Source: Sphingomonas sp. SORGH_AS_0950
Lineage (GTDB): Bacteria > Pseudomonadota > Alphaproteobacteria > Sphingomonadales > Sphingomonadaceae
Assembly (NCBI RefSeq): GCF_030818415.1
Contig: NZ_JAUTAE010000001.1
Coordinates: 560,501-624,500, forward strand
Reading direction: 5' to 3'
Length of the DNA: 64,000 bases
This document shows, piece by piece, positions 43,539-58,087 of the stretch. The notes beneath the pieces are model-generated. The model made no database searches and had not been told where the DNA came from. It saw only the letters and a program-made list of their open reading frames with translations. Each line of letters opens with the position of its first letter. The first letter of the stretch is position 1. A program made the translations under genes and the position numbers.

Positions 43539-44651
43539 CTAAAACAGTACGACCGAGCGGATGCTTTCGCCCTTGTGCATCAGGTCGAAGCCCTTGTTGA
43601 TCTCCTCCAGCGTCAGCCGGTGGGTGATCATCGGATCGATCTCGATCTTGCCGTTCATATACCAGTCGACGATCTTGGGCGTGTCGGTCCGCCCGCGCGC
43701 GCCGCCGAACGCGGTGCCGCGCCAGTTGCGGCCCGTCACCAGCTGGAACGGCCGGGTGCTGATCTCCTTGCCCGCCTCGGCCACGCCGATGATGATCGAG
43801 GTGCCCCAGCCGCGATGGCACGCCTCCAGCGCGGTACGCATCACCTCGGTATTGCCGGTCGCGTCGAAGCTGTAATCCGCGCCGCCATCGGTCAACTCCA
43901 GGATCTTGGCGATCGTCTCTTCGCGCGACAGGCCCTTGGAATTGAGGAAGTGGGTCATGCCGAAGCGGCGGCCCCATTCCTCGCGGTCGGGGTTGATGTC
44001 GACGCCGATGATCCGGCCCGCGCCCGCCAGCTTGGCACCCTGGATGACGTTCAGGCCGATGCCGCCCAGACCGAAGACGACGATATTCTCGCCCGGCTGA
44101 ACCTTGGCGGTGTTGACCACCGCGCCCACGCCCGTCGTCACGCCGCAGCCGATATAGCAGCTGGTGTCGAACGGCGCGTCTTCACGGATCTTGGCGACCG
44201 CGATTTCGGGCAGGACGGTGAAGTTCGAAAAGGTCGAGCAGCCCATATAATGGAAGATCGGCTGGCCCTTATAGCTGAACCGGGTCGTGCCGTCGGGCAT
44301 CAGCCCCTTGCCTTGCGTCGCGCGGATCGCGGTGCACAGGTTAGTCTTGCCCGACAGGCACGACTTACACTGGCGGCATTCGGGGGTGTAGAGCGGGATG
44401 ACATGGTCGCCCGGCACGACGCTGGTCACGCCCGCACCCACCTCGCGCACGATGCCGCAGCCTTCATGGCCGAGCACGCTGGGGAAGATCCCCTCGCTGT
44501 CCAGGCCGTCCAGCGTATAGGCATCGGTGTGGCAGATGCCGGTCGCCATGATCTCGACCAGGACCTCTCCGGCCTTGGGTCCTTCCAGATCGAGTTCGAC
44601 GATTTCGAGCGGCTTCTTCGCTTCGAAGGCGACGGCGGCGCGGGTCTTCAC
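43539..44651 (-). CDS. frmA: S-(hydroxymethyl)glutathione dehydrogenase / class III alcohol dehydrogenase
   Basis: Glutathione-dependent formaldehyde oxidation. The 370-aa zinc MDR has [31 protein letters not shown], the structural-zinc segment [41 protein letters not shown] and the class III signature [14 protein letters not shown]. The start codon is GTG (44651) with GGAG ten bases upstream. It is a single-gene unit; no formylglutathione hydrolase is seen next to it. A formaldehyde-yielding demethylation in the neighbouring MocR system is conceivable but unproven. Confidence 0.95.
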
Positions 44652-44723: not shown

Positions 44724-47306
44724 TCAGAAGCGAACAGTGGCTTCCACGCCGAAGGTCCTGGGCAGGGCCCGAACCAGATAGCCCGCTCCGGTGATGCCCT
44801 CATTGGGATAGCCGCCCGGGAAATAGAGCCTGTTCGACAGGTTCTTGCCCCACACCGAAAGGGTGTAGCGATCCGTCACATAGCTGATACGGCTGTTGAA
44901 CACCCAGTAATCGCCCTCGCCATTTGTATAGACGCCCGTCGCAAGGTTCTTCAGGACACCGCGACTATAGTCCTTGAACGAGTCGTAATAGAAGCGGCCG
45001 GAATAGGCGGTGTCGCCATGTACCTTGATCGTGCCAGCCCCGACATCCGCCGCATCCCAGTCGAAGCCCAGGTTGATCGACGACTTTGGTGCATAGGGGA
45101 AGGGGTTGCCGCCGACGCTGACACTGCCCGCGCCCGATTGTACGCAAGACCCTTTCTGTGCCGGATACAGGCCGCTGAGGTTCAGCGCTGCGCAGCTTGC
45201 CTGATCCAAATCCTTATACTTGCTGTCGAGCAGGCCGAGCGATGCGCTGAGCGTCAGGCGATCGGTGGCGGCGAATTCGACATCCAGTTCCAGCCCCTTC
45301 ATCGTGCCGTCGAGCGTGATGACGTTCGCCGTCACGCTCTGGTCGACGACCTGGCTCTGCTGGTTCTTGTAGTCATAATAGAAGAAGCTGCCGTTGACCT
45401 GCAGCCGGTTGTCAAGGAACCGGGTCTTGAACCCCACCTCATAGGCGTTCACTTCTTCCGGTTTGACGAAATAGACCTGCGGCGAGCTGATATAGGCGAG
45501 GCCGTTGAACGTTCCGGCGCGATAGCCGCGACTATAGCTGGCATACAGCATGACGCCGTCCACCGGCTTCCAGTCCAGTATGGCGCGGCCCGAGATGCGG
45601 CTGGTCTTGCCGTCCTTGTTGATGCCGCCGGGCACGCTTCCCCCGGTTGCCGGGATCACCACGGCCCCGGCCTCGTTATAGACCGGCGACAGGAAATAGG
45701 GCGCGCCATAGGCGGAAACGGCGAGCATTCGCGCATTGCCCGCGTCGTCATAATAGGTGGTGATGCCATCGCGATATCGGGTGATGTCGGTCGTGTAGCG
45801 CAGGCCCGCCGTGACCTTCACCGTCGGGGTGATTTCATAGCTGCCTTCGCCATAGACGGCCCAGCTTTCGCGTTCCTGCCGGAAATGCTGCTTGCCCAGA
45901 ATGCCGGTCGGGACCGAACCGGCGGACAGCACCTTTCCGTTGAAGCCGCCCGCCGGGTTGAACCAGGTCGCGGGCAGGCCGACGGCGGCACGCACGTCGC
46001 TCAGCAGGTTGAAGATGTCGATGGCGTTGTTCGACGTGACCGAATCCCAGCCATAATAGGCGCCCGCGATCATCTTGAACGGGCCGCTGCTGTAATCGAG
46101 CCGCATATCCTGATTGAAGGCCTTGAAATCGGACCGATAGCCATTCGAACAGAGGCGCAGCGGGCTGCTGTCGCAATCCGTCTGTGTCTGGAGATAGAGG
46201 CCGGAATCATAGCCGGTGATCGAAGTGAGGCTGAGCCGGTCGGCAAGGTCGGCCTTCACCGTCAACACCGCCCCCTCGGTGCGGGTAACGGCGCGGCCGA
46301 CGGTATCCTGTTCGATCTCGGTATCCGACAGCCCCGCCCGGCTGTAGCTGCTCGGCAGTAGACCGGCGCCCTTGGAGCCCAGTGCCTGGAACAGGGGCGA
46401 AAGGATGAAATTGGGGTTTTCATAGTCGAACAGGCCCGGATTGGACTTGTACGGGCCAGCACCGAGAGAGGCCGCCGCGCCTCCGGTCGATTTGGACGCA
46501 TAACCCTTCAGCGTGATGTCAAGCGCGTCGACCGGCTTGAACCGCATCGTGCCGCGAAACGCGTAGCTCTCATCGCCGCCGGGATCGCGACCCGTCGCGA
46601 AATTCCGCCCGGATGCGCCGCCCGCCGCCGTCTTGTTCAGACCGGCAGGCATCAGATTATGGATATAGGGATCCATTTTGACATAGGTGCCCGCGATGCG
46701 GATGCCGAACCGGTCTTCGACGGGGGTCAGTTCGATCGCGCCTTCGAAATTCCAGCGGTCGTAATTGGCATAGCCCACCGTCAGATACCCATTGTCGCCC
46801 TTCAGGGCGGGCTTGCGGGTGATGAAGTTGATCGCGCCGCCGGTGGTGTTGCGGCCATAGAGCGTCCCCTGGGGCCCGCGGACCACTTCGACCTGGTTCA
46901 GATCATAGAGTTGCTGGCCCTGGCTCGCGCGGAAGGTCTGATAGACCTCGTCGACATAGACGCCGACCGGCGATGCCGCGCTCGCGCTGAGTTCGGTGCC
47001 GACACCGATACCGCGCAGCGTGAAATTGGGCTGTTGCGAACCATAAGCCGATGACACCTGCAGATTGGGCATCGAACCGTTCAGGTCCGACGTGTCGAAC
47101 ACGCCCTGAGCGGCGAGTTCCGACGACGAAATGGCCGACACGGCAACCGGAACGTCCTGGAGGTTCTCCGACCGCTTGGTGGCGGTTACGACGATCTCCT
47201 CCAATCCTCCGGCCTGCGTCTGCGCCTTGCTCGCATCCTGCGCGGATGCCGGCATCGCCGTGCATGTCGCGATGGCGAGAATGCTGATGCCCCCGACCCT
47301 TTTCAT
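44724..47306 (-). CDS. TonB-dependent receptor of the MocR-controlled system
   Basis: The 860-aa receptor starts at ATG 47306 (AGGGAGC upstream) with signal peptide MKRVGGISILAIATCTAMPASAQ, TonB box LEEIVVTATKRSENLQDVPVAVSAIS, a plug with LLPNLQ-like block SMPNLQVSSAYGSQQPNFTLRGIGVGTELS and VRGPQGTLYGRNTTGGAINFIT, and a barrel ending RTFGVEATVRF. The open frame extends to 47408 but the extra residues lack signal character. Copy A of the 35-bp bipartite site lies about 150 bases upstream, so this receptor belongs to the MocR regulon. Confidence 0.93.
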   Translation of the reverse strand: MKRVGGISILAIATCTAMPASAQDASKAQTQAGGLEEIVVTATKRSENLQDVPVAVSAISSSELAAQGVFDTSDLNGSMPNLQVSSAYGSQQPNFTLRGIGVGTELSASAASPVGVYVDEVYQTFRASQGQQLYDLNQVEVVRGPQGTLYGRNTTGGAINFITRKPALKGDNGYLTVGYANYDRWNFEGAIELTPVEDRFGIRIAGTYVKMDPYIHNLMPAGLNKTAAGGASGRNFATGRDPGGDESYAFRGTMRFKPVDALDITLKGYASKSTGGAAASLGAGPYKSNPGLFDYENPNFILSPLFQALGSKGAGLLPSSYSRAGLSDTEIEQDTVGRAVTRTEGAVLTVKADLADRLSLTSITGYDSGLYLQTQTDCDSSPLRLCSNGYRSDFKAFNQDMRLDYSSGPFKMIAGAYYGWDSVTSNNAIDIFNLLSDVRAAVGLPATWFNPAGGFNGKVLSAGSVPTGILGKQHFRQERESWAVYGEGSYEITPTVKVTAGLRYTTDITRYRDGITTYYDDAGNARMLAVSAYGAPYFLSPVYNEAGAVVIPATGGSVPGGINKDGKTSRISGRAILDWKPVDGVMLYASYSRGYRAGTFNGLAYISSPQVYFVKPEEVNAYEVGFKTRFLDNRLQVNGSFFYYDYKNQQSQVVDQSVTANVITLDGTMKGLELDVEFAATDRLTLSASLGLLDSKYKDLDQASCAALNLSGLYPAQKGSCVQSGAGSVSVGGNPFPYAPKSSINLGFDWDAADVGAGTIKVHGDTAYSGRFYYDSFKDYSRGVLKNLATGVYTNGEGDYWVFNSRISYVTDRYTLSVWGKNLSNRLYFPGGYPNEGITGAGYLVRALPRTFGVEATVRF

Positions 47307-47459
47307 GTGAAGCTCCCTGATAAGGTCACTGCATCTGAGTGCATTGGTGACCCGTTGCGCCTGGGCATCAGCAGTCAGGGATAAAGGGGTGCGTGGATCC
47401 TGTCGCACAGCCCCGAACGCTGGTGCCAGGGCTCAAGGTGCCGGATATCTGCCCCTCTT

Positions 47460-47494
47460 CTTAGGACCTGTTCGCCGCTTTTTGATGGGGCCAG
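47460..47494 (-). promoter_or_regulatory. MocR-type bipartite operator, copy A (upstream of TonB receptor)
   Basis: On the minus strand: CTGGCCCCA, 17 bases, GGTCCTAAG. It fits CTGGnnCCA-N17-GGnnCTA. It lies directly after the stop of the ligase gene. Confidence 0.7.
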
Positions 47495-47495
47495 T

Positions 47496-49154
47496 TCAAC
47501 TTTGGTCCTGTTCCATGGCGCGCAGCATGAAGCGTTGTATCTTGCCGCTGGGGGTTTTCGGCAGTTCCGGCAGGAACGCGATCAGCCGGGGATAGGCATG
47601 CGCGGACAGCCGGGTTTTGACATGCGCTTTCAGGGCATCGGCCAGCGCGGGCGTCGGCGCAAATCCCGCGTTCAGGACGATGAAGGCCTTGACCAGCTCG
47701 GTGCGGTCCGGGTCCGGCACGCCGACCACCGCGGCCTCCATCACGGCGGGATGTTCGATCAATGCGCTTTCGACATCGAAGGGGCCGATCCGATAGCCCG
47801 ATGAGGTGATGACGTCGTCGGCACGCGCGATGAAGCTGACACTGCCGTCGGGGCCCAGTTCCACCGTATCCCCCGTCCGGTAATAGCCGCCACGGATGGC
47901 GGGCGTCGGTTGTTGCCAATAGCCGCCAAACCAGAAGAGGGAAGACCGGGCGATGTCGATCGCCAGTTCGCCCGGTTCGAAGAAGCCCCGTTCGTGGCCG
48001 TCCTCATCCAGCACCGCGACCCGGTAGCCGGGCATCGCGACTCCGGCCGAGCCGATGCGGACGGCGTGCGACAGGCCGTGATGGTTGTTCACGAGCATGC
48101 CCGTTTCCGTCTGGCCGTAATGATCGTGTACCGGCACCGCGAGCTGGGCATCGAACCACCGGATGACTTCGGGATTCAGCGGCTCGCCCGCACTGCTGAC
48201 GACGCGCAGCATGCCCTTTATCTTGGAAGCGGCCGCGCCGCCCCCCGCCATCAGCAGGCGATACGCGGTGGGCGAACCGGCGAGATTGGTGACGCCGAGT
48301 CGGGCGATAAGATCGATGGCTGCCTCGGCGGAGAAGACGCCATCATGCAGGATCGTCGCCCGGCCGAGCAGCAACGGCCCGGTGATCCCGTAATAGAGAC
48401 CATAGGCCCAGCCGGGATCCGCGATATTCCAGAAAAGGTCTTCCGCTCGCAGGTCAATCGCCCATCGCATATAGGCGCCGACCGCGATCAGCGCCTTCAG
48501 GGGCACACCCACGCCTTTTGGGAGGCCCGTGGAACCCGATGTCGACATCATGAGGAAAAGATCGTTGCCCGTGCGCAGGACCGGTACGAAATCGGTCGAC
48601 ATCCCCGCCACCTCGGCCCGGAAGTCGATATCGCCCGCCACGAGCGGCTCGTCCGGCGTGCGGACGACTGCAATCGGTGGACATTGCGCGATGTCCGTCA
48701 GCTTCGGGCGATTGGCGCTGTCCGTCACGACCAGCACGGCGTTGCCGATGCCCAGCCGGTGCGCGATCGCCTTGGGGCCGAAGGCGGTGAACAGCGGTTG
48801 ATAGATCGCCCCGATCCGCCAGACGCCCAGGATCGTCGCGACCAGCTCCAGCCTTCGCGGCAACAGGCCCGCTACGACGTCGCCGGGCCGGACGCCGTGC
48901 GCCGCCAGCATATGCGCCACCTGGGCGGACAGGTCGCGCAACGCGGCGAAGCCATGATCACAACGCGTGCCATCCGCCGCGATCGTGATGAGCGCCAAAT
49001 CGTCGCTATCGGCATAGCGGTCGCAGCATTCGACACAGGCGTTGATGCCGTCCGACAGATGGCCCGAAAGCCGTGCACGCTCCCGTTCAATGCAAAATTC
49101 CTCGACCGCCTCCCTGTAATCAGGGACGGCGACCGATGCCGATAGGCTGGTCAT
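47496..49154 (-). CDS. AMP-forming acyl/aryl-CoA synthetase of the MocR system
   Basis: The 552-aa ANL enzyme, similar in layout to medium-chain/benzoate-type acyl-CoA synthetases (ACSM-like), has the loop LMMSTSGSTGLPKGVGVPL, adenylate motif DHYGQTETGMLVNN, YYRTGDTVELGPDGSVSFIARADDVITSSGYRIGPFDVESAL and the C-terminal lysine region KTPSGKIQRFML. The start at 49154 (MTSLSASVAV) has GGAGAGG upstream; the frame to 49334 has no supporting features. It is probably transcribed with the bicupin gene 200 bases upstream. The carboxylate substrate is unknown. Confidence 0.9.
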   Translation of the reverse strand: MTSLSASVAVPDYREAVEEFCIERERARLSGHLSDGINACVECCDRYADSDDLALITIAADGTRCDHGFAALRDLSAQVAHMLAAHGVRPGDVVAGLLPRRLELVATILGVWRIGAIYQPLFTAFGPKAIAHRLGIGNAVLVVTDSANRPKLTDIAQCPPIAVVRTPDEPLVAGDIDFRAEVAGMSTDFVPVLRTGNDLFLMMSTSGSTGLPKGVGVPLKALIAVGAYMRWAIDLRAEDLFWNIADPGWAYGLYYGITGPLLLGRATILHDGVFSAEAAIDLIARLGVTNLAGSPTAYRLLMAGGGAAASKIKGMLRVVSSAGEPLNPEVIRWFDAQLAVPVHDHYGQTETGMLVNNHHGLSHAVRIGSAGVAMPGYRVAVLDEDGHERGFFEPGELAIDIARSSLFWFGGYWQQPTPAIRGGYYRTGDTVELGPDGSVSFIARADDVITSSGYRIGPFDVESALIEHPAVMEAAVVGVPDPDRTELVKAFIVLNAGFAPTPALADALKAHVKTRLSAHAYPRLIAFLPELPKTPSGKIQRFMLRAMEQDQS

Positions 49155-49354: not shown

Positions 49355-50221
49355 TTATTCGGGCAGTACGTCCCGCGTGATGACCCACAGCTTCTTCGAG
49401 AAGGGGCCCTTCGACGTCCATGTGATGTGCATGCCGGAAGACAGACCGATCGTATCGCCCGCCTTGAAATTGTGGACCTTGCCGGTGTCGGTTTCCACCA
49501 CCTCGACCTCGCCTTCGAGCAGCAGGATCGTCTCGTCGCCCAGCACGCCGGTATAGGGGGTCTTGAGCGCGCCCTTTCCATCGACATCGCTGCCCGCGAT
49601 GCCCTTGCCCGACCGCCAGACGCCGCTCATCATCGTGCCCGTCGAACCGCCGGAGCGCAGGAAATAGAGTTCGCCCGCGACCAGGGGACCTTCGGCGGGT
49701 TCGTCGAAATGATATTCCAGCCAATCGGCGGGATTGTCGCTGGTGTGCGAGATCAGCAAATCCTGCGGCGCATTGCTCGTCGGTTCGCTGCCGTTCCAGA
49801 TGCACCACCATTTCTTGAACGATGGCCCCTCGATCTCCCACTGCACTTCCAGCCCCTTGGGCGAGTTGATGATGGAACCGGGGCCGACTTTGTAGCGCTT
49901 GCCGGTGGAAAGGACGGTGAGCACGGCGGTGCCGTCGATCACGCAGGCGACTTCGTCGCCCAGGGGCGAGGAATAGACGATGGTATGCGACCCGTCCGCC
50001 GTCGCGCCCGGGGCGGTGGGGCCGGTGCGCCAGAAGCCGGCCGACAGCGATCCCGACATACCCTCGGTCCGGGTCACCACATATTCGCCGTGCACCTGCA
50101 TGCCGAAACGGGGCTCGACCCATTCGAACGGCAGCCATTTCTCATTGGGTTCGTTCTGCACGCCGCCATGAACCGCGTAACGCGGCAATTCCTGCACTTG
50201 CGCCGCCAACTGCGTTGCCAT
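49355..50221 (-). CDS. Bicupin protein (two tandem DUF861-like cupin domains)
   Basis: The 288-aa protein is an internal duplication: residues about 40-140 (WVEPRFGMQVHGEYVVTRTEG...SHTIVYSSPLGDEVACVIDGTAVLTVLSTGKRYKVGPGSIINSPKGLEVQWEIEGP) and 180-288 (LISHTSDN...YTGVLGDETILLLEGEVEVVETDTGKVHNFKAGDTIGLSSGMHITWTSKGPFSKKLWVI). Each half has the cupin order of a GDE block followed by a KxGDxI/GPGSI turn. The usual HxH metal ligands are not evident, as in the cupin_3 group around ureidoglycine aminohydrolase. It may be a binding or isomerase-type protein. Copy B of the operator lies upstream. Confidence 0.8.
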   Translation of the reverse strand: MATQLAAQVQELPRYAVHGGVQNEPNEKWLPFEWVEPRFGMQVHGEYVVTRTEGMSGSLSAGFWRTGPTAPGATADGSHTIVYSSPLGDEVACVIDGTAVLTVLSTGKRYKVGPGSIINSPKGLEVQWEIEGPSFKKWWCIWNGSEPTSNAPQDLLISHTSDNPADWLEYHFDEPAEGPLVAGELYFLRSGGSTGTMMSGVWRSGKGIAGSDVDGKGALKTPYTGVLGDETILLLEGEVEVVETDTGKVHNFKAGDTIGLSSGMHITWTSKGPFSKKLWVITRDVLPE

Positions 50222-50330
50222 GCCAAATCTCCCTTGAACGAGATTGAACCGTAACCGGCCGATCGGGAAAACCATTCGGTTCCCCCCGAACGTCGACCAG
50301 GCTTGAATATCAGAGCATCACGACCGACGG

Positions 50331-50365
50331 CCTAGCGCCATCCCTGGCCCTTTTGATGGGGCCAG
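50331..50365 (-). promoter_or_regulatory. MocR-type bipartite operator, copy B (upstream of bicupin)
   Basis: On the minus strand: CTGGCCCCA, 17 bases, GGCGCTAGG. It fits CTGGnnCCA-N17-GGnnCTA and lies 110 bases upstream of the bicupin start. Confidence 0.7.
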
Positions 50366-50395
50366 ATGGCCACATTCGACCGCCGTCTCCGCCGT

Positions 50396-50902
50396 TCACG
50401 CCTCCATCGACGGGGCGGTCAGCGAGATGGTCTCCGCGAGGAGCGGCACATCCTTGAACACGGCGAAGCTGCTGGGCGTGTTCGGCATGACGGGGAAGTT
50501 GAAATTGCACTGGGGGCAGGGTTCGGCGAGAACCTTCTGCTCTTCCTGCAGCTCGAACGCCTTGTCCTCGACCAGCCCGCAATTGGGGCATACGCGGAGA
50601 AGCCGCGTGTTGGTCAGTTCGAAATTGGTGATGATGTCTTCCATGATCGCACCACGCGCCGCCCATGCCTTGGCGTGCTTGTGGTAGGTCGCCTGGTGCC
50701 AGTCCTTGAGCGCCGCGCGGTTCACCCAGAAGCTGACCTCGTTGAACCAAGTCGGATCTTCGGGATGGACCCACCATGTCAGATGGAGGAAGCCGGGCAG
50801 CTTCATCAGGTGATTGCGCGTATCGGCGAAAATGACCTTGAACTTCTCGTATCCGTCCGGGCTGGAAAAGCGCACGCGCTGCATACTGAGATAGATGGAC
50901 AT
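50396..50902 (-). CDS. ABM-like domain fused to a C-terminal zinc ribbon
   Basis: The 168-aa protein: residues 1-95 resemble a dimeric alpha-beta-barrel (antibiotic-biosynthesis-monooxygenase type) protein (YEKFKVIFADTRNHLMKLPGFLHLTWWVHPEDPTWFNEVSFWVNRAALKDWHQATYHKHAKAW). Residues 100-135 carry CPNCG (C105, C108) and CPQCN (C129, C132), a four-cysteine zinc-ribbon or rubredoxin-like pair. I know no characterised member with this combination. It diverges from the MocR regulator with operator copy C between them, so it is probably an enzyme or accessory factor of the same pathway. Confidence 0.75.
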   Translation of the reverse strand: MSIYLSMQRVRFSSPDGYEKFKVIFADTRNHLMKLPGFLHLTWWVHPEDPTWFNEVSFWVNRAALKDWHQATYHKHAKAWAARGAIMEDIITNFELTNTRLLRVCPNCGLVEDKAFELQEEQKVLAEPCPQCNFNFPVMPNTPSSFAVFKDVPLLAETISLTAPSMEA

Positions 50903-50971
50903 GGGATTCTCCGCTCAATGAGTCCAGCCCGATAAGCTGTGCGGTGAGGATGAAGAGCGACTTGGCCAGTC

Positions 50972-51006
50972 GGTAGGGCCAGTATAGCGGAAGATGATGG
51001 TGCCAG
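50972..51006 (-). promoter_or_regulatory. MocR-type bipartite operator, copy C (ABM/MocR divergent promoter)
   Basis: On the minus strand: CTGGCACCA, 17 bases, GGCCCTACC. It fits CTGGnnCCA-N17-GGnnCTA. The position allows control of the ABM-like gene and autoregulation of the MocR gene. Confidence 0.7.
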
Positions 51007-51081
51007 ATGCCGACGGCTCTATCATTGGCGCGACCGTGCGATAGGATCGGTGCAGCTGGGGTAGCGAAGGCATGCCTGACG

Positions 51082-52575
51082 ATGACGATGAACCTGATCA
51101 TTCGTATCGACCGCGAAGACGAGCGATCGCTGCAGGTGCAGATTTACGAGGCGGTCCGCGATCAGATCCTGCAAGGCACATTGGCCGCGGGCAAGCGACT
51201 GCCCTCGACGCGCAGCATGTCGGACCAGCTGGGCATCGCCCGCAACACCGTGACGCTGGCCTATGAACGCCTCGCCGCAGAGGATTATATCACCTCGCGG
51301 GCCAAGGCGGGCATCTTCGTCAACGACCGGCTGCCCGACGCGACCGTCCTGCTGCGCAATGGCCATTCATCGGTTCAGCCCAGCCGCAAGCGGCTCCGGT
51401 TGGGCAAGAATCCCAGCTTTTCCGGGCGGGCGCCCCGCTTGTGGCACGAAAGGCGATCGCGGCCGCAGTTCGATTTCTTCGTCGGACGACCGCGCCCCGA
51501 CAGCTTCCCGACCAGCTTCTGGCAACGCACGATCGCGCGGCATCTCGCTTATGCCCATGGCATCCAGACCGAATATAGCGATCCGCGTGGACTGGCCGCG
51601 CTGCGCGAAGCGATTGCGGCGCATCTGGGCGAAACGCGCGGGATGGAAGCCAGCGCCGATCAGATCATGGTCACCTCCGGCATCCAGGGGGCGCTCAACC
51701 TGCTCGCCCGCATCTTCATCACCGATCGTACGAAGGCGAGCGTGGCGGTCGAGAATCCCTGTTACCAGGGTGCCGCCTTTCTCTTCGGCAGCTATGGTGC
51801 CAGCATCCGTCCGATCGACGTCGACGAACAGGGTATCGTCGTCTCGCAACTCGAAAGCTTCATGGGCAATCTCGTCTATGTGACGCCGTCCCACCAGTTT
51901 CCGACCGGCTGCACGCTCAGCCTCGACCGCCGCCTGCATCTTCTCGACTGGGCCTATCAGACGGGCAGCTATGTCATCGAGGACGATTATGACAGCGACT
52001 TCCGCTACGACGGACCGCCGCTGACCGCGCTCGCCGGATTGGATCGCAGGGGGCACGTCATCTATCTCGGCACCTTCTCCAAATCGATCGGCGCGGGGCT
52101 GAGAGTGGGTTATGCGGTCATGCCGCGTCATCTTCTCGATCAGGCGCGATTGGTGAAGACATTGACCGACCATGGCGCGCCATGGCTGGAGCAGGCAGTG
52201 ATCGCGGATTTCCTGAAGGAAGGCGCGTTTCTCCGCCATCTGCGCCGGATCCGCCGGTCCTATATGGGCGCACGAGACCAGGTGATCCGGTCGATCGAAG
52301 AGCATTTCCCCGGCGGCGTGCTGATGGGGCGCGAATGCGGGATGCACATGATGTGGACGCTGCCGCCCGATCTCCCCGCCGCGAATGATATGCAGCGTAT
52401 CGCGCTGAACTGCGGCGTCGGCCTGTATCCGTTCGCAGGCGCTGCTACGCAGGAATATGGTAACCCCGGCCGCTTTCGCGAACGCTCGCTGGTACTCGGT
52501 TATACCGGGCTGTCGGAGGAGGCGATCCGCGAAGCCTTTACCCGTGTCGCCACGGTGGTCGGCCAGCGGCGCTAG
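51082..52575 (+). CDS. MocR-family (GntR-HTH plus aminotransferase-like) transcriptional regulator
   Basis: The 497-aa protein has an N-terminal GntR winged helix (DERSLQVQIYEAVRDQILQGTLAAGKRLPSTRSMSDQLGIARNTVTLAYERLAAEDYI) joined through a linker to a fold-type I aminotransferase-like domain with VENPCYQGA, VTPSHQFPTGCTLS, DDYDSDFRYDG and the PLP lysine in YLGTFSKSIGAGLRVGYAV. Such regulators sense PLP adducts of amino compounds or PLP itself. ATGs at 51082 and 51088 are both possible; GAAGG lies upstream. Operator copies A-D around it define its probable regulon. Confidence 0.93.
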   Translation: MTMNLIIRIDREDERSLQVQIYEAVRDQILQGTLAAGKRLPSTRSMSDQLGIARNTVTLAYERLAAEDYITSRAKAGIFVNDRLPDATVLLRNGHSSVQPSRKRLRLGKNPSFSGRAPRLWHERRSRPQFDFFVGRPRPDSFPTSFWQRTIARHLAYAHGIQTEYSDPRGLAALREAIAAHLGETRGMEASADQIMVTSGIQGALNLLARIFITDRTKASVAVENPCYQGAAFLFGSYGASIRPIDVDEQGIVVSQLESFMGNLVYVTPSHQFPTGCTLSLDRRLHLLDWAYQTGSYVIEDDYDSDFRYDGPPLTALAGLDRRGHVIYLGTFSKSIGAGLRVGYAVMPRHLLDQARLVKTLTDHGAPWLEQAVIADFLKEGAFLRHLRRIRRSYMGARDQVIRSIEEHFPGGVLMGRECGMHMMWTLPPDLPAANDMQRIALNCGVGLYPFAGAATQEYGNPGRFRERSLVLGYTGLSEEAIREAFTRVATVVGQRR

Positions 52576-52585
52576 GCCGCCCGAA

Positions 52586-52620
52586 CTGGTACCACTCTTA
52601 AGGCCGGATTTGGCTCTAGG
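52586..52620 (+). promoter_or_regulatory. MocR-type bipartite operator, copy D (upstream of aldehyde dehydrogenase)
   Basis: CTGGTACCA, 17 bases, GGCTCTAGG on the plus strand, about 95 bases before the aldehyde dehydrogenase ATG. It fits CTGGnnCCA-N17-GGnnCTA. Confidence 0.7.
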
Positions 52621-52713
52621 GGATGGACCGAAAGCTTCTTAGCCTTCCTGAAATTCCTCGACGTTCGCTTCGCCCAGCTGGCCGACGTCGACGACAATGC
52701 AGGAGGATGGGAT

Positions 52714-54120
52714 ATGCCTGGTTACCGGCTTCTGATCGACGGTCGATTGGTCGATGGCGCGGATAGGATGGAGGTCATCAACCCCGCGACCGAGGAGGTG
52801 CTGGCCTTATGCCCGCGCGCCTCGACAGGGCAGTTGGATGAAGCGGTCCGGGCGGCGAAGCGCGCCTTTCCGGCCTGGGCGAAGACCCCGATCGCGGAGC
52901 GGCGCGCGCTGATCCTCGATCTTGCCGATTGCATGGAGGTGCATGCGGAAAGCCTGGCGCGTCTGCTGACCCAGGAACAGGGCAAGCCATTGAGCGAAGC
53001 CACCGCCGAGATCGCCTATAGCATCGCCTTCATCCGCCAGCTCGCGACCCATGACCTGCCGGTCGGGGTGTTGGAGGACAATGACAGCCGCCGGGTCGAA
53101 CGGCATCGCCGCCCGCTGGGGGTGGTCGGCGCGATCATTCCCTGGAACTTCCCGGTGCTGATCGTCGCCTTCAAACTGCCATTGGCGCTGCTGGCGGGCA
53201 ATACGCTGGTCATCAAACCGGCACCCACCACGCCCTTGTCGACGCTGCGCCTGGGCGAGATGATGGCCGGCATTTTCCCGCCCGGCGTGGTCAACGTCAT
53301 CACCGATCAGAACGATCTGGGCACCCGTCTGACGTCGCATCCCGATATCGCGAAAATCAGCTTCACCGGATCGACCGCGACCGGTCGGAAGGTGATGGAA
53401 AGCGCGGCGGCGTCGATCAAGCGCCTCACGCTGGAACTGGGCGGCAACGACGCGGCAATCGTCCTGCCCGATGCCGACCCGGTGAAGGCGGCGACGGGCA
53501 TCTTCGGCGGCGCGTTCCTAAACGCGGGACAGGTCTGCATCGCGATCAAGCGCGTCTATGCCCATGCCGACATCTATGATGCGCTCTGCGCGGAACTGGC
53601 CAAGCTCGCCGAAGAAGCCGTTGTCGATGATGGGTTGAAGCAGGGCGCACAGATCGGACCGCTCCAGAACCGGGCGCAATATGACAAGGTGAAGGCGATC
53701 ATCGAAGCGGCGCGATCGGACGGCACGATCATCGCCGGGGGCGAAGTGCTGGACCGGCCGGGCTATTTCATCCGGCCGACCATCGTGCGCGACATCAACG
53801 ACGGTGCGCGGCTGGTGGACGAGGAACAGTTCGGCCCCGTGCTTCCCGTCATCCGCTATGACGATCCCGAAGACGCGCTGGCGCGCGCCAATGCGTCCGA
53901 TATGGGGCTGGGCGGCTCGATCTGGTCGTCCGACCGCGATGCGGCGCGTGACCTCGCCATGCGCATGGAGGCGGGCACGGTCTGGATCAACAAACATCTC
54001 GATTTCGGGCCCGGCATTCCGTTCGGCGGCGCGAAACAATCGGGGCTGGGCGTCGAATTCGCGGAGGAGGGATTCCACGAATTCACGCAGGTTCATGTCA
54101 TCAACGAGGCGAAGGCCTGA
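52714..54120 (+). CDS. NAD(P)-dependent aldehyde dehydrogenase of the MocR system
   Basis: The 468-aa enzyme has IIPWNFPVLIVAFKLPLALLAGNTLVIKPAP (cofactor), [27 protein letters not shown] (catalytic Glu), LNAGQVCIAIKRVYAH (catalytic Cys) and the C-terminal [15 protein letters not shown]. An AGGAGG at 52701-52706 decides the start. It is a paralogue of the 7561 enzyme. With the AMP-forming ligase it would convert an aldehyde to acid and then to a CoA ester; MocR control suggests the aldehyde arises from an amine or amino acid. Confidence 0.93.
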   Translation: MPGYRLLIDGRLVDGADRMEVINPATEEVLALCPRASTGQLDEAVRAAKRAFPAWAKTPIAERRALILDLADCMEVHAESLARLLTQEQGKPLSEATAEIAYSIAFIRQLATHDLPVGVLEDNDSRRVERHRRPLGVVGAIIPWNFPVLIVAFKLPLALLAGNTLVIKPAPTTPLSTLRLGEMMAGIFPPGVVNVITDQNDLGTRLTSHPDIAKISFTGSTATGRKVMESAAASIKRLTLELGGNDAAIVLPDADPVKAATGIFGGAFLNAGQVCIAIKRVYAHADIYDALCAELAKLAEEAVVDDGLKQGAQIGPLQNRAQYDKVKAIIEAARSDGTIIAGGEVLDRPGYFIRPTIVRDINDGARLVDEEQFGPVLPVIRYDDPEDALARANASDMGLGGSIWSSDRDAARDLAMRMEAGTVWINKHLDFGPGIPFGGAKQSGLGVEFAEEGFHEFTQVHVINEAKA

Positions 54121-54167
54121 CCGACCATGGCATAGGCCGCAAACAGGATCGATACCGGCGGTCACGA

Positions 54168-54224
54168 CCTTCATGGCCGCCTATAACTCAAGAGGCTCAG
54201 CGGCCTCCTACCCTACGAATACAA
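54168..54224 (+). pseudogene. Left fragment of an older IS481-type transposase gene
   Basis: CTTCATGGCCGCCTATAAC followed by AAGAGGCTCAGCGGCCTCC and CCCTACGAATAC matches the FMAAYNF...KTLSGLTPYEYI coding region of the neighbouring IS transposase, but on the opposite strand and with a small internal deletion. Its continuation lies at 55348-55419. Confidence 0.65.
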
Positions 54225-54225
54225 C

Positions 54226-55204
54226 CTAGGTGTTCAGTCCCGACATCTGGTGGATCGGGTTGACGATGAACCGGTCTGGCTCTGACGTCCAGATCTTGGC
54301 GATGTATTCGTAGGGTGTGAGCCCGCTGAGCGTCTTGAGCCGTCGGGCGAAGTTGTAGGCGGCCATGAAGTCGGCGAGGTGCGTCCGGAGCTGGTCGTGG
54401 CTCTCGTAATGGAAGCGTTTGACGGTCGCCTCCTTGATGGTGCGGTTCATCCGTTCGACCTGTCCGTTGGTCCACGGATGGTTCGGTTTGGTGAGCCGGT
54501 GCTCGATATCGTTTGCCTCGCAGATCATGTCGAAGCGCATTTGGCGGGACCAGGCGGTGTTGCGGTTGCGGGGCTGCTCGGCGAACTGGATGCCATTGTC
54601 GGTCAGGATAGTGTGGATGCGGTACGGCACGGCTTTCAGCAGATGTTCGAGGAACTCCCACGCTGTGCGTCTGGCAGCCTTGTCGACCAGTTGAGTGACC
54701 GCGAACTTGCTGGTGCGGTCTATGCCGACGAACAGGTAGAGCTTGCCTTCGGCAGTCTGCACTTCGGCAATATCGATGTGGAAGAAGCCGATCGGGTAGC
54801 GTTTGAAGCGTTGCCGCTTCGGTTTGTCGCCTTCGATGTCCGGCAGCCGGGAGATCCCGTGCCGCTGGAGGCATCGGTGCAGCGCTGAGCGCGTCAGATG
54901 CGGGAGCGACGGTTGCAGGGCGTAGAGGCAATCCCCCGCCTACGCGGGGGCAGGCTGGCGGCAGCAGCGTGTGCCGCCGGAACGCCACAACCATTGCCTC
55001 CTCGGCCTCGGACAGGGTTGTCGAATGAGGGGCCTTCGGCCCTGTCTTCATATCCTCGACCGTCGCCCGCTTACGCCACTTCGCGACCGTCTTCGGGTTG
55101 ATCCCCAACTCACGGCTCAGCGTCGAGAGCGAAGCTTGCGATCGCTGTATTGCTGCTCGGACGGCGTGCGTGGTCGTGGCGCTTCCGTGACGTACCTGTC
55201 CCAT
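54226..55204 (-). pseudogene. IS481-family transposase gene, frameshifted by a palindromic insertion
   Basis: N-terminal part (MGQVRHGSATTTHAVRAAIQRSQASLSTLSRELGINPKTVAKWRKRATVEDMKTGPKAPHST) with HTH and C-terminal DDE catalytic part (GKLYLFVGIDRTSKFAV, LTDNGIQFAEQ, HPWTNGQVERMNRTIKEATVKRFHYES) are in different frames. The break lies at 54933-54957, where a family-typical LLPLDDCLYALQ stretch is replaced by a GC-rich palindrome. The stop codon (TAG) lies outside the element in the CTAG target. The transposase should be inactive unless frameshifting occurs. Confidence 0.85.
54933..54950. repeat. Small palindrome inserted in the transposase gene
   Basis: CCCCCGC-CTAC-GCGGGGG, a perfect 7-bp stem, sits inside about 25 bases that replace roughly two codons of the transposase and shift its frame. 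Confidence 0.8.
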
Positions 55205-55262
55205 ACGGCATCCTTCCATTCCAACGAAAGGATCGCACCATCAAACCGTGGGATCAAACACC

Positions 55263-57238: not shown

Positions 57239-58087
57239 TTATTCCCTCTTATTTACTAGAAAAGGATCTGCCGGGACTGCACTCAGACGATTTTCGACGA
57301 TGCGGTGCTGGAAAAGTCCGAAGATAAGGATGATGTTCATTGGGATGAGTTCAAACCACCAGAACAGGCGGGGATTGGCGAAAAGGCAGGCAAGAAAAAT
57401 CGCGTAGACCCGCACATTGGCGGACAACAGGCTCATCAGCCGCATAGGTCCAACGGCCTGGACGGCATATCTTGCCGCAAACTCGGAGGGCGCATGGTGC
57501 TGGCCCAGCACATGATCGAACCGCGCGGCGACGCGGTCCAATAGTCCCCAGCAAAGGTCATAAAGTCGAACCAGCGGATTGCGGCTCGGGGCAGGAGGGG
57601 CGATCATCGCCACCGCATTGCGGCGACGGTGAAAGCGGGCCCGCTCGCTCTCGTACATGTTCGACTGGACCATGTGCGCAATGCCTGCCGCCACGGCCAG
57701 CGCCCAACCTTCCAATGTGCCAATCGACAAGGCCAGCGAAACATAGATCAGGATGAAAACGCCGTGATCGCACAACCCGTCCAGCACGCGTCCCAGCGGA
57801 CTGGCGGTGCCCGTGGCCCGCGCGATCATCCCGTCCAGGCCGTCGGCGACAAGCCAGCCGACCGACAGCAGCAAGCCGACCAAGGCAAAAGGCCACATTT
57901 CCCACTGGATGTAAGCCAGCGCCGCCAACGTGCCCAAAGCCAGCCCGGCCAGGGAAACGGCATTGGCCGAAATTCCGCGCGCAATGAACCAGGGCAAAAG
58001 AAAGCGCGCCGCTGGATGAATAATCCAGAGATTTGTCGGATCTTCTATCCGGCGGTCCCGTGACATGTCGGGGATGGTGAGCGTCAT
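57239..58087 (-). CDS. CDP-alcohol phosphatidyltransferase-family membrane enzyme
   Basis: The 282-aa membrane protein carries the CDP-alcohol phosphotransferase motif DGMIARATGTASPLGRVLDGLCD (DGxxAR-x8-G-x3-D-x3-D), with hydrophobic segments on both sides (for example SANAVSLAGLALGTLAALAYI and the C-terminal FLACLFANPRLFWWFELIPMNIILIFGLF). It would join CDP-inositol, or CDP-diacylglycerol, to an alcohol or phosphate acceptor. The operon context favours an inositol phospholipid or phosphodiester product. ATG at 58087 is used; the TTG one codon earlier is less likely. Confidence 0.88.
   Translation of the reverse strand: MTLTIPDMSRDRRIEDPTNLWIIHPAARFLLPWFIARGISANAVSLAGLALGTLAALAYIQWEMWPFALVGLLLSVGWLVADGLDGMIARATGTASPLGRVLDGLCDHGVFILIYVSLALSIGTLEGWALAVAAGIAHMVQSNMYESERARFHRRRNAVAMIAPPAPSRNPLVRLYDLCWGLLDRVAARFDHVLGQHHAPSEFAARYAVQAVGPMRLMSLLSANVRVYAIFLACLFANPRLFWWFELIPMNIILIFGLFQHRIVENRLSAVPADPFLVNKRE

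Follow-up and report, generated by a model that had tools for sequence, protein, structure and literature searches.

The closest known systems to the locus analysed here are those of the rhizopine MocR, TauR, GabR and PdxR. In published MocR operators the repeats are direct, inverted or both, and most have TGG or TGT as their core (PMC5320631). The rhizopine system, as described in PMC10107442, has divergent mocR and mocB genes and two inducible catabolic promoters, the mocR promoter itself not being inducible; the inducible promoters carry 11-bp repeats with a 13-bp spacer, giving a period of 24 bp. TauR operators are given as direct repeats of CTGGACYTAA (Wiethaus 2008, as cited in PMC5320631 and PMC4494728).

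Our locus lies in a 64,000-nucleotide stretch of DNA from Sphingomonas sp. SORGH_AS_0950, referred to below as the window. With the rhizopine system it shares two direct repeats of 24-bp period and a divergent mocR, but the rhizopine boxes read AAAGYGGYTCT rather than the TGGnnCYA seen here, and the target genes are others (PMC10107442). With TauR, an activator, it shares the use of direct repeats and a CTGG core near the TGGnnCTA of box 2 (PMC5320631, PMC4494728); there are, however, no taurine genes here, and box 1 is CTGGnnCCA. GabR of Bacillus subtilis has the same domain make-up, its K312 corresponding to K334 and its PLP-stacking Tyr205 to Y228, whereas its operator, made of ATACCA repeats according to PMC4494728, differs from our sites. 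PdxR is similar in that its NCBIfam model scores the regulator here above the cut-off, and PdxR operators are described as mixing direct and inverted repeats (PMC5320631). Unlike PdxR, the present system has no PLP genes among its operator-bearing genes.

Sphingomonads also possess a PEG operon in which a receptor, an aldehyde dehydrogenase and an acyl-CoA ligase stand under one regulator. It differs from the present cluster in the family of that regulator and in its alcohol dehydrogenase, no such enzyme being encoded among the operator-bearing genes here. Judged from sequence comparison, the present locus is a real, conserved and local MocR regulon with a family-typical operator, a known, vitamin-B6-dependent type of switch with a new gene set.

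The gene cluster and its probable regulator

The cluster comprises the following genes, with positions given in the window:

44724-47306, minus strand: TonB-dependent receptor (PF00593, PF07715), start taken at MKRVGG, which is common to loci L017 and L018
47496-49154, minus strand: acyl-CoA synthetase/ligase, AMP-binding (PF00501, PF13193), without a separate operator in the window
49355-50221, minus strand: bicupin (PF05899), predicted fold nearest to DUF861 bicupins
50396-50902, minus strand: ABM-domain protein (PF03992) with a C-terminal four-cysteine zinc-ribbon-like part (ABM-zinc)
51082-52575, plus strand: MocR-type regulator, GntR winged helix-turn-helix and fold type I PLP domain (PF00392, PF00155)
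52714-54120, plus strand: aldehyde dehydrogenase (PF00171)

In the regulator, PF00392 covers residues 43-105 and PF00155 residues 178-469 of the 522-aa open reading frame. The PLP lysine K334, within the sequence GTFSKS, corresponds to GabR K312 in the alignment and is kept in 9/9 aligned sequences, the window included. By contrast GabR Arg207 and Arg430, described as the ligands of the GABA carboxylate (PMC6917764), align with G230 and A455, positions at which Gly and Ala are found in 9/9 aligned sequences; the pairing of A455 with Arg430 is less certain, as it falls in a poorly aligned stretch, and Arg430 is placed outside the conserved blocks in PMC6677901. Because the carboxylate-binding arginines of GabR appear to be missing from this MocR, its effector is probably something other than a GABA-like amino acid.

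The protein scores 436.1 bits with the NCBIfam PdxR model (cut-off 320) and 362.5 bits with the rhizopine MocR model, below the cut-off of 650. The PdxR model is broad, since it matched all 14 control genomes and exceeded its cut-off in 5 of them. It also matches 18 places in the genome of this strain at E ≤ 0.001, most of them in part only, and no full operator motif was found within about 4.3 kb of the three other MocR genes of this genome that match nearly the whole model.

Occurrence of the operator motif

The initial annotation had described a bipartite motif, CTGGnnCCA-N17-GGnnCTA, at four places in the window, outside coding sequence and with its two parts 24 bp apart. The predicted MocR operators are as follows:

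47460-47494, minus strand: TonB receptor gene; box 1 47486-47494, box 2 47462-47470
50331-50365, minus strand: bicupin (probably plus ligase) transcript; box 1 50357-50365, box 2 50333-50341
50972-51006, minus strand: ABM-zinc gene, in the divergent mocR/ABM region; box 1 50998-51006, box 2 50974-50982
52586-52620, plus strand: aldehyde dehydrogenase gene; box 1 52586-52594, box 2 52610-52618

A pattern search of the 64-kb window found the 33-bp motif with zero mismatches at exactly these places (47462-47494, 50333-50365 and 50974-51006 on the minus strand, 52586-52618 on the plus strand) and the 24-bp period was as described. With the gene starts used here none of the sites falls inside the six genes; three of the four lie in purely mechanical ORFs (one in 47461-47919, two in 50310-51101), which we take to be non-genes. 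Spacers vary between the sites, the boxes being constant. Only the perfect copies stand out in the window, since a search allowing up to three mismatches gives 53 matches where 52 would be expected.

The whole genome (4,389,989 bp, 3 contigs) contains four perfect matches, which are the four sites of the window, all within 5.2 kb, and 12 further places with one mismatch; among places with at most one mismatch no wider regulon was found. A reversed-pattern control outnumbered the motif (132 against 16 matches in this genome); this count reflects composition and was therefore not used as a null. Across 100 relatives including this strain, perfect motifs were found four times in this genome, four times in genome G052, which apart from this strain is alone among the 100 in having an ABM-zinc gene, and once each in 7 of the 98 others, which lack that gene. 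Three of the four G052 copies lie within about 3 kb of the ABM-zinc gene; the fourth, away from the gene cluster on another contig, is at G052:C45:167406-167438.

A position matrix, the check proposed in the initial annotation, was built from 22 orthologous sites of loci L019-L026, leaving out the window and the near-identical L017 and L018; the consensus had been picked after the sites were seen, and this orthologue matrix is independent of the window. Core scores of the four window sites were 41.0, 38.5, 33.5 and 24.7. The runner-up in the 64 kb, a place within the ABM gene, reached 9.1, and scores from -13.4 to 12.2 were obtained for the 12 places in the genome with one mismatch.

Conservation at orthologous loci

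A search with the MocR protein gave 10 loci (L017-L026) whose MocR is 60-98% identical, with hosts in Sphingomonas, Novosphingobium, Sphingobium, Bradyrhizobium, a Xanthobacteraceae MAG, Methylobacillus and two gammaproteobacterial MAGs; L017 and L018 are almost identical to the window and add little. In all 10, spanning three proteobacterial classes, the motif adjoins cluster genes with at most one mismatch, and 9/10 have it in perfect form, L025 having one-mismatch copies only. The site upstream of the TonB receptor is kept in 5/5 sphingomonad loci (L017-L021). In L023 mocR and the ABM-zinc gene are the only cluster genes found, and the motif is present.

Orientation is equally constant. In window positions 40001-64000 and the ten loci taken together there are 36 sites with at most one mismatch, and 34 of these have a cluster gene no more than 400 bp downstream, each facing that gene on the same strand (34/34). 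The other two face no counted gene: one is a one-mismatch place at window position 57542; the other, in L021, is a perfect site directed at a bicupin-like fragment.

The initial annotation expected sites at orthologous genes and assigned six genes to one regulator. Sites are indeed present at orthologues, and for the receptor, bicupin, ABM-zinc and aldehyde dehydrogenase genes they stay with the gene even when gene order changes, as in L020, where the aldehyde dehydrogenase and ligase genes are relocated, each with its own one-mismatch site. The assignment is less direct for the other two: in the window no site belongs to the ligase itself, and the site between mocR and the ABM-zinc gene faces the latter.

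Some further features of these loci were noted. The Methylobacillus mocR orthologue (L025:10001-11454) is not readable in one frame over the matched range, its operators being kept with one mismatch. Neighbouring genes that might hint at the substrate are two UbiD genes in L023, a CobW gene in L022 and a DUF1329 gene in L024.

Promoter architecture and reading of the operator

The promoter alignment comprised 26 sites, L017, L018 and the ABM site of L026 having been dropped as near copies; the 26 are related promoters and not independent. Conservation covers box 1 and, within box 2, GGnnCTA; box 1 is followed by an A-rich stretch, and a -10-like nAnnnT occupies columns 55-60 (A in 23/26, T in 21/26). 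The mean hexamer score peaks at columns 55-60, a peak unmatched in 1000 shuffles. Putative -10 hexamers of the window, and a further half-box, are placed as follows:

47435-47440, minus strand: weak -10-like CACCTT, TonB promoter (columns 55-60)
50306-50311, minus strand: -10-like GATATT, bicupin promoter
50947-50952, minus strand: -10-like CATCCT, ABM promoter
52640-52645, plus strand: -10-like TAGCCT, aldehyde dehydrogenase promoter
50963-50965, minus strand: third, inverted half-box CCA of the ABM operator (columns 42-44), weak

These four -10-like hexamers are weak, and the best-scoring hexamer lies exactly at this offset in 11/26 sites; the TonB and bicupin promoters of the window have a better-scoring hexamer elsewhere (for TonB, TATCCG at offset 14). 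When the pattern was lengthened to 59 bp so as to take in the -10, the genome gave four perfect matches, all in the cluster, and five more with one mismatch. In distant relatives the -10 frame was not significant, with 4/12 at offset 21, tied with offset 9, and a shuffle 95th percentile of 4. No clear -35 element was found at columns 31-38 (spacer 16-18), where TTGACA is matched at 2.46/6 on average, random hexamers giving 2.20. A sigma-70 consensus scan detected no promoter at these sites. If the spacer were 17 bases long, a -35 would take in the final two bases of box 2.

The third half-box at columns 42-44 is found in 6/7 ABM, 1/10 bicupin, 0/4 TonB, 0/4 aldehyde dehydrogenase and 1/1 ligase operators. 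An inverted half-box at column 42 or 43 accompanies 6/12 distant pairs. The fixed orientation, the -10 at fixed offset, the missing -35 and this inverted half-box at the ABM promoter did not figure in the initial annotation.

The operator is best read, as far as sequence conservation goes, as a tandem MocR operator of two direct repeats 24 bp apart. The two half-sites had been described initially as near-palindromes; we prefer direct repeats, as in other MocR operators, because the palindromic TGGnnCCA form of box 1 is kept in only 2 of 12 distant 24-bp TGGnnC pairs that face away from mocR, and palindromic half-sites were thus rejected as a general rule. Pairs of TGGnnCnA with period 24 occur in 7/9 core, 0/12 mid and 0/58 far loci, the corresponding numbers for TGGnnC being 7, 5 and 13.

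The 24-bp spacing in the MocR family

The wider family was represented by 80 MocR homologues with 54 non-redundant upstream regions, which possibly include some coding sequence; the core word TGGnnC was chosen after the cluster was seen. Repeats of TGGnnC 24 bp apart are present in 20/54 regions, the next most frequent period reaching 5, and 500 shuffles gave a mean of 0.78 and a maximum of 5. Fourteen of the 20 are among the 46 regions with less than 60% identity. The 24-bp pairs face away from mocR in 17 regions and toward it in 4, one region having both. This suggests that 24-bp TGGnnC spacing is common among MocR proteins well beyond the cluster, both in Proteobacteria and in some Bacillales. 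A feature of the MocR subfamily, an operator in which a box with a TGG or TGT core is repeated two to four times close to the regulator's own gene, is found here too.

In three alphaproteobacterial loci the ABM-zinc gene lies beside a different MocR, 40-43% identical (L034:5540-5890, L035:9730-9960 and L028:11440-12130). These loci have CTGG-type repeats with 24-bp spacing (in L035 as judged by eye) and not the core motif. Homologous genes are also found near MocR homologues in L027, L029, L036 and L075, the L027 copy, which is the one that was checked, being a multihaem cytochrome (PF13447); it is possible that these genes form a second target family of related MocR proteins.

The probable target genes and their possible pathway

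The ligase gene shares its strand with the bicupin gene and lies behind it. The interval between them showed no terminator-like site, and the ligase probably rides on the bicupin transcript. Cysteines C105, C108, C129 and C132 of the ABM-zinc protein are invariant in 25 sequences. Within the class, 24/385 genomes gave an ABM-zinc match at E ≤ 0.001, 23 of them weak (E 4e-6 to 9e-4), and this strain alone among the 385 holds a close relative. A sequence search of the PDB gave best E values of 0.014 for the bicupin and 0.089 for ABM-zinc. The predicted ABM-zinc fold (mean pLDDT 80, pTM 0.67) is nearest to SnoaB-type ABM proteins, and that of the bicupin (pLDDT 91, pTM 0.88) to the DUF861 bicupins, with quercetinase, oxalate decarboxylase and ureidoglycine aminohydrolase as close runners-up; these two folds do not name a substrate.

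Homologues of ABM-zinc and the bicupin that are about 65-75% identical occur in ascomycete fungi (Fusarium, Clonostachys, Cercospora, Neonectria), which suggests that this enzyme pair was transferred between kingdoms. The module would likely begin with uptake, followed by one or two unassigned steps by the bicupin and ABM-zinc; an aldehyde would then be oxidised and the resulting acid activated with CoA. A literature search for the regulon or module, judged from its listings, found no description of this gene set.

Two neighbouring genes were noted. A zinc-type alcohol dehydrogenase gene (43539-44651; PF08240, PF00107), presumably similar to class III formaldehyde-linked enzymes, lies downstream of the receptor gene, and is in the same place in L017 and L018. 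Downstream of the aldehyde dehydrogenase, at 54197-55219, is an apparently broken transposase-like gene in two overlapping frames (HTH; rve integrase core). A related open copy is found at L017:1416-2351, and a short piece resembling the transposase end was seen by eye at about 54160-54230.

Discussion

We think it probable that the four sites are operators of the MocR encoded among them, which would bind the direct repeats as a dimer and activate four transcripts together. A MocR dimer, arranged head to tail via its aminotransferase-like domains, would set one winged helix on each direct repeat, wCTGGnnCCAT and TGGnnCTA, 24 bp apart, the second repeat ending where a -35 element would begin. 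With PLP and an effector, MocR would most likely recruit RNA polymerase next to the missing -35, and the receptor, bicupin-ligase, ABM-zinc and aldehyde dehydrogenase transcripts would be switched on together as an uptake-and-oxidation module. The fixed direction of the sites, the -10 at fixed offset and the missing -35 point to activation; from this layout we infer an activator bound next to the -35 position. That this MocR binds the four sites is likewise presumed, as are the effector and the pathway in the scheme.

Rather more tentatively, and with some doubt, the protein may represent an undescribed sensor class for a catabolic module built on two orphan proteins, the bicupin and the ABM-zinc-ribbon protein, the nearest solved fold to the latter being that of the cofactor-independent oxygenase SnoaB. 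Because the pair is common to proteobacteria and ascomycetes at about 65-75% identity, one widespread natural compound might be degraded by this so far unassigned enzyme pair, and the effector would not have the carboxylate that GabR needs.

On the same operators, MocR might instead be mainly a repressor released by its effector, as EnuR is for the ectoine genes. Given a 17-base spacer, a -35 would start within box 2, and EnuR is described as a repressor whose predicted operators overlap core promoter elements (PMC8739950). We nevertheless find this unlikely, since the fixed direction of 34/34 sites and the lack of a clear -35 suit an activator, and TauR, GabR and PdxR are described as activating (PMC5320631), as is the rhizopine MocR (PMC10107442).

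A second alternative, which we regard as improbable, concerns the signal: the regulator would be a PdxR sensing PLP itself, and the cluster would serve vitamin B6 homeostasis. A PdxR score of 436 bits over a cut-off of 320 is in keeping with this, and the apparent absence of the GabR carboxylate arginines would allow a plain PLP sensor. The model is broad, however, matching 14/14 control genomes (5 over the cut-off), no pdx gene or other gene of PLP synthesis or salvage is found among the operator-bearing genes, and the regulated receptor, aldehyde dehydrogenase and ligase look catabolic.

It is very improbable that the sites belong to another regulator which merely shares the locus. Other GntR-type proteins could use the motif, the genome having the 18 mostly partial PdxR-model matches (E ≤ 0.001), but the motif tracks this MocR over 10 loci in three proteobacterial classes, even L023 with mocR and ABM-zinc alone, and has the geometry of a MocR operator. 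An origin of the sites by chance or as a dispersed repeat deserves almost no credit even with a pattern picked after the fact, given that 4/4 perfect genome copies lie in the cluster, 98 relatives lacking the ABM-zinc gene have 7 perfect copies in all, 34/34 sites face the cluster gene downstream, matrix scores run at 24.7-41.0 against 9.1, sites recur at orthologous genes, and spacers differ between sites while boxes do not.

With MocR in control of these four transcripts, five structural genes would be tied to one regulator, and an operator-reporter would offer a direct route to a substrate screen. In a family with few characterised members, an operator at the -35 contact position would be a concrete mechanistic prediction.
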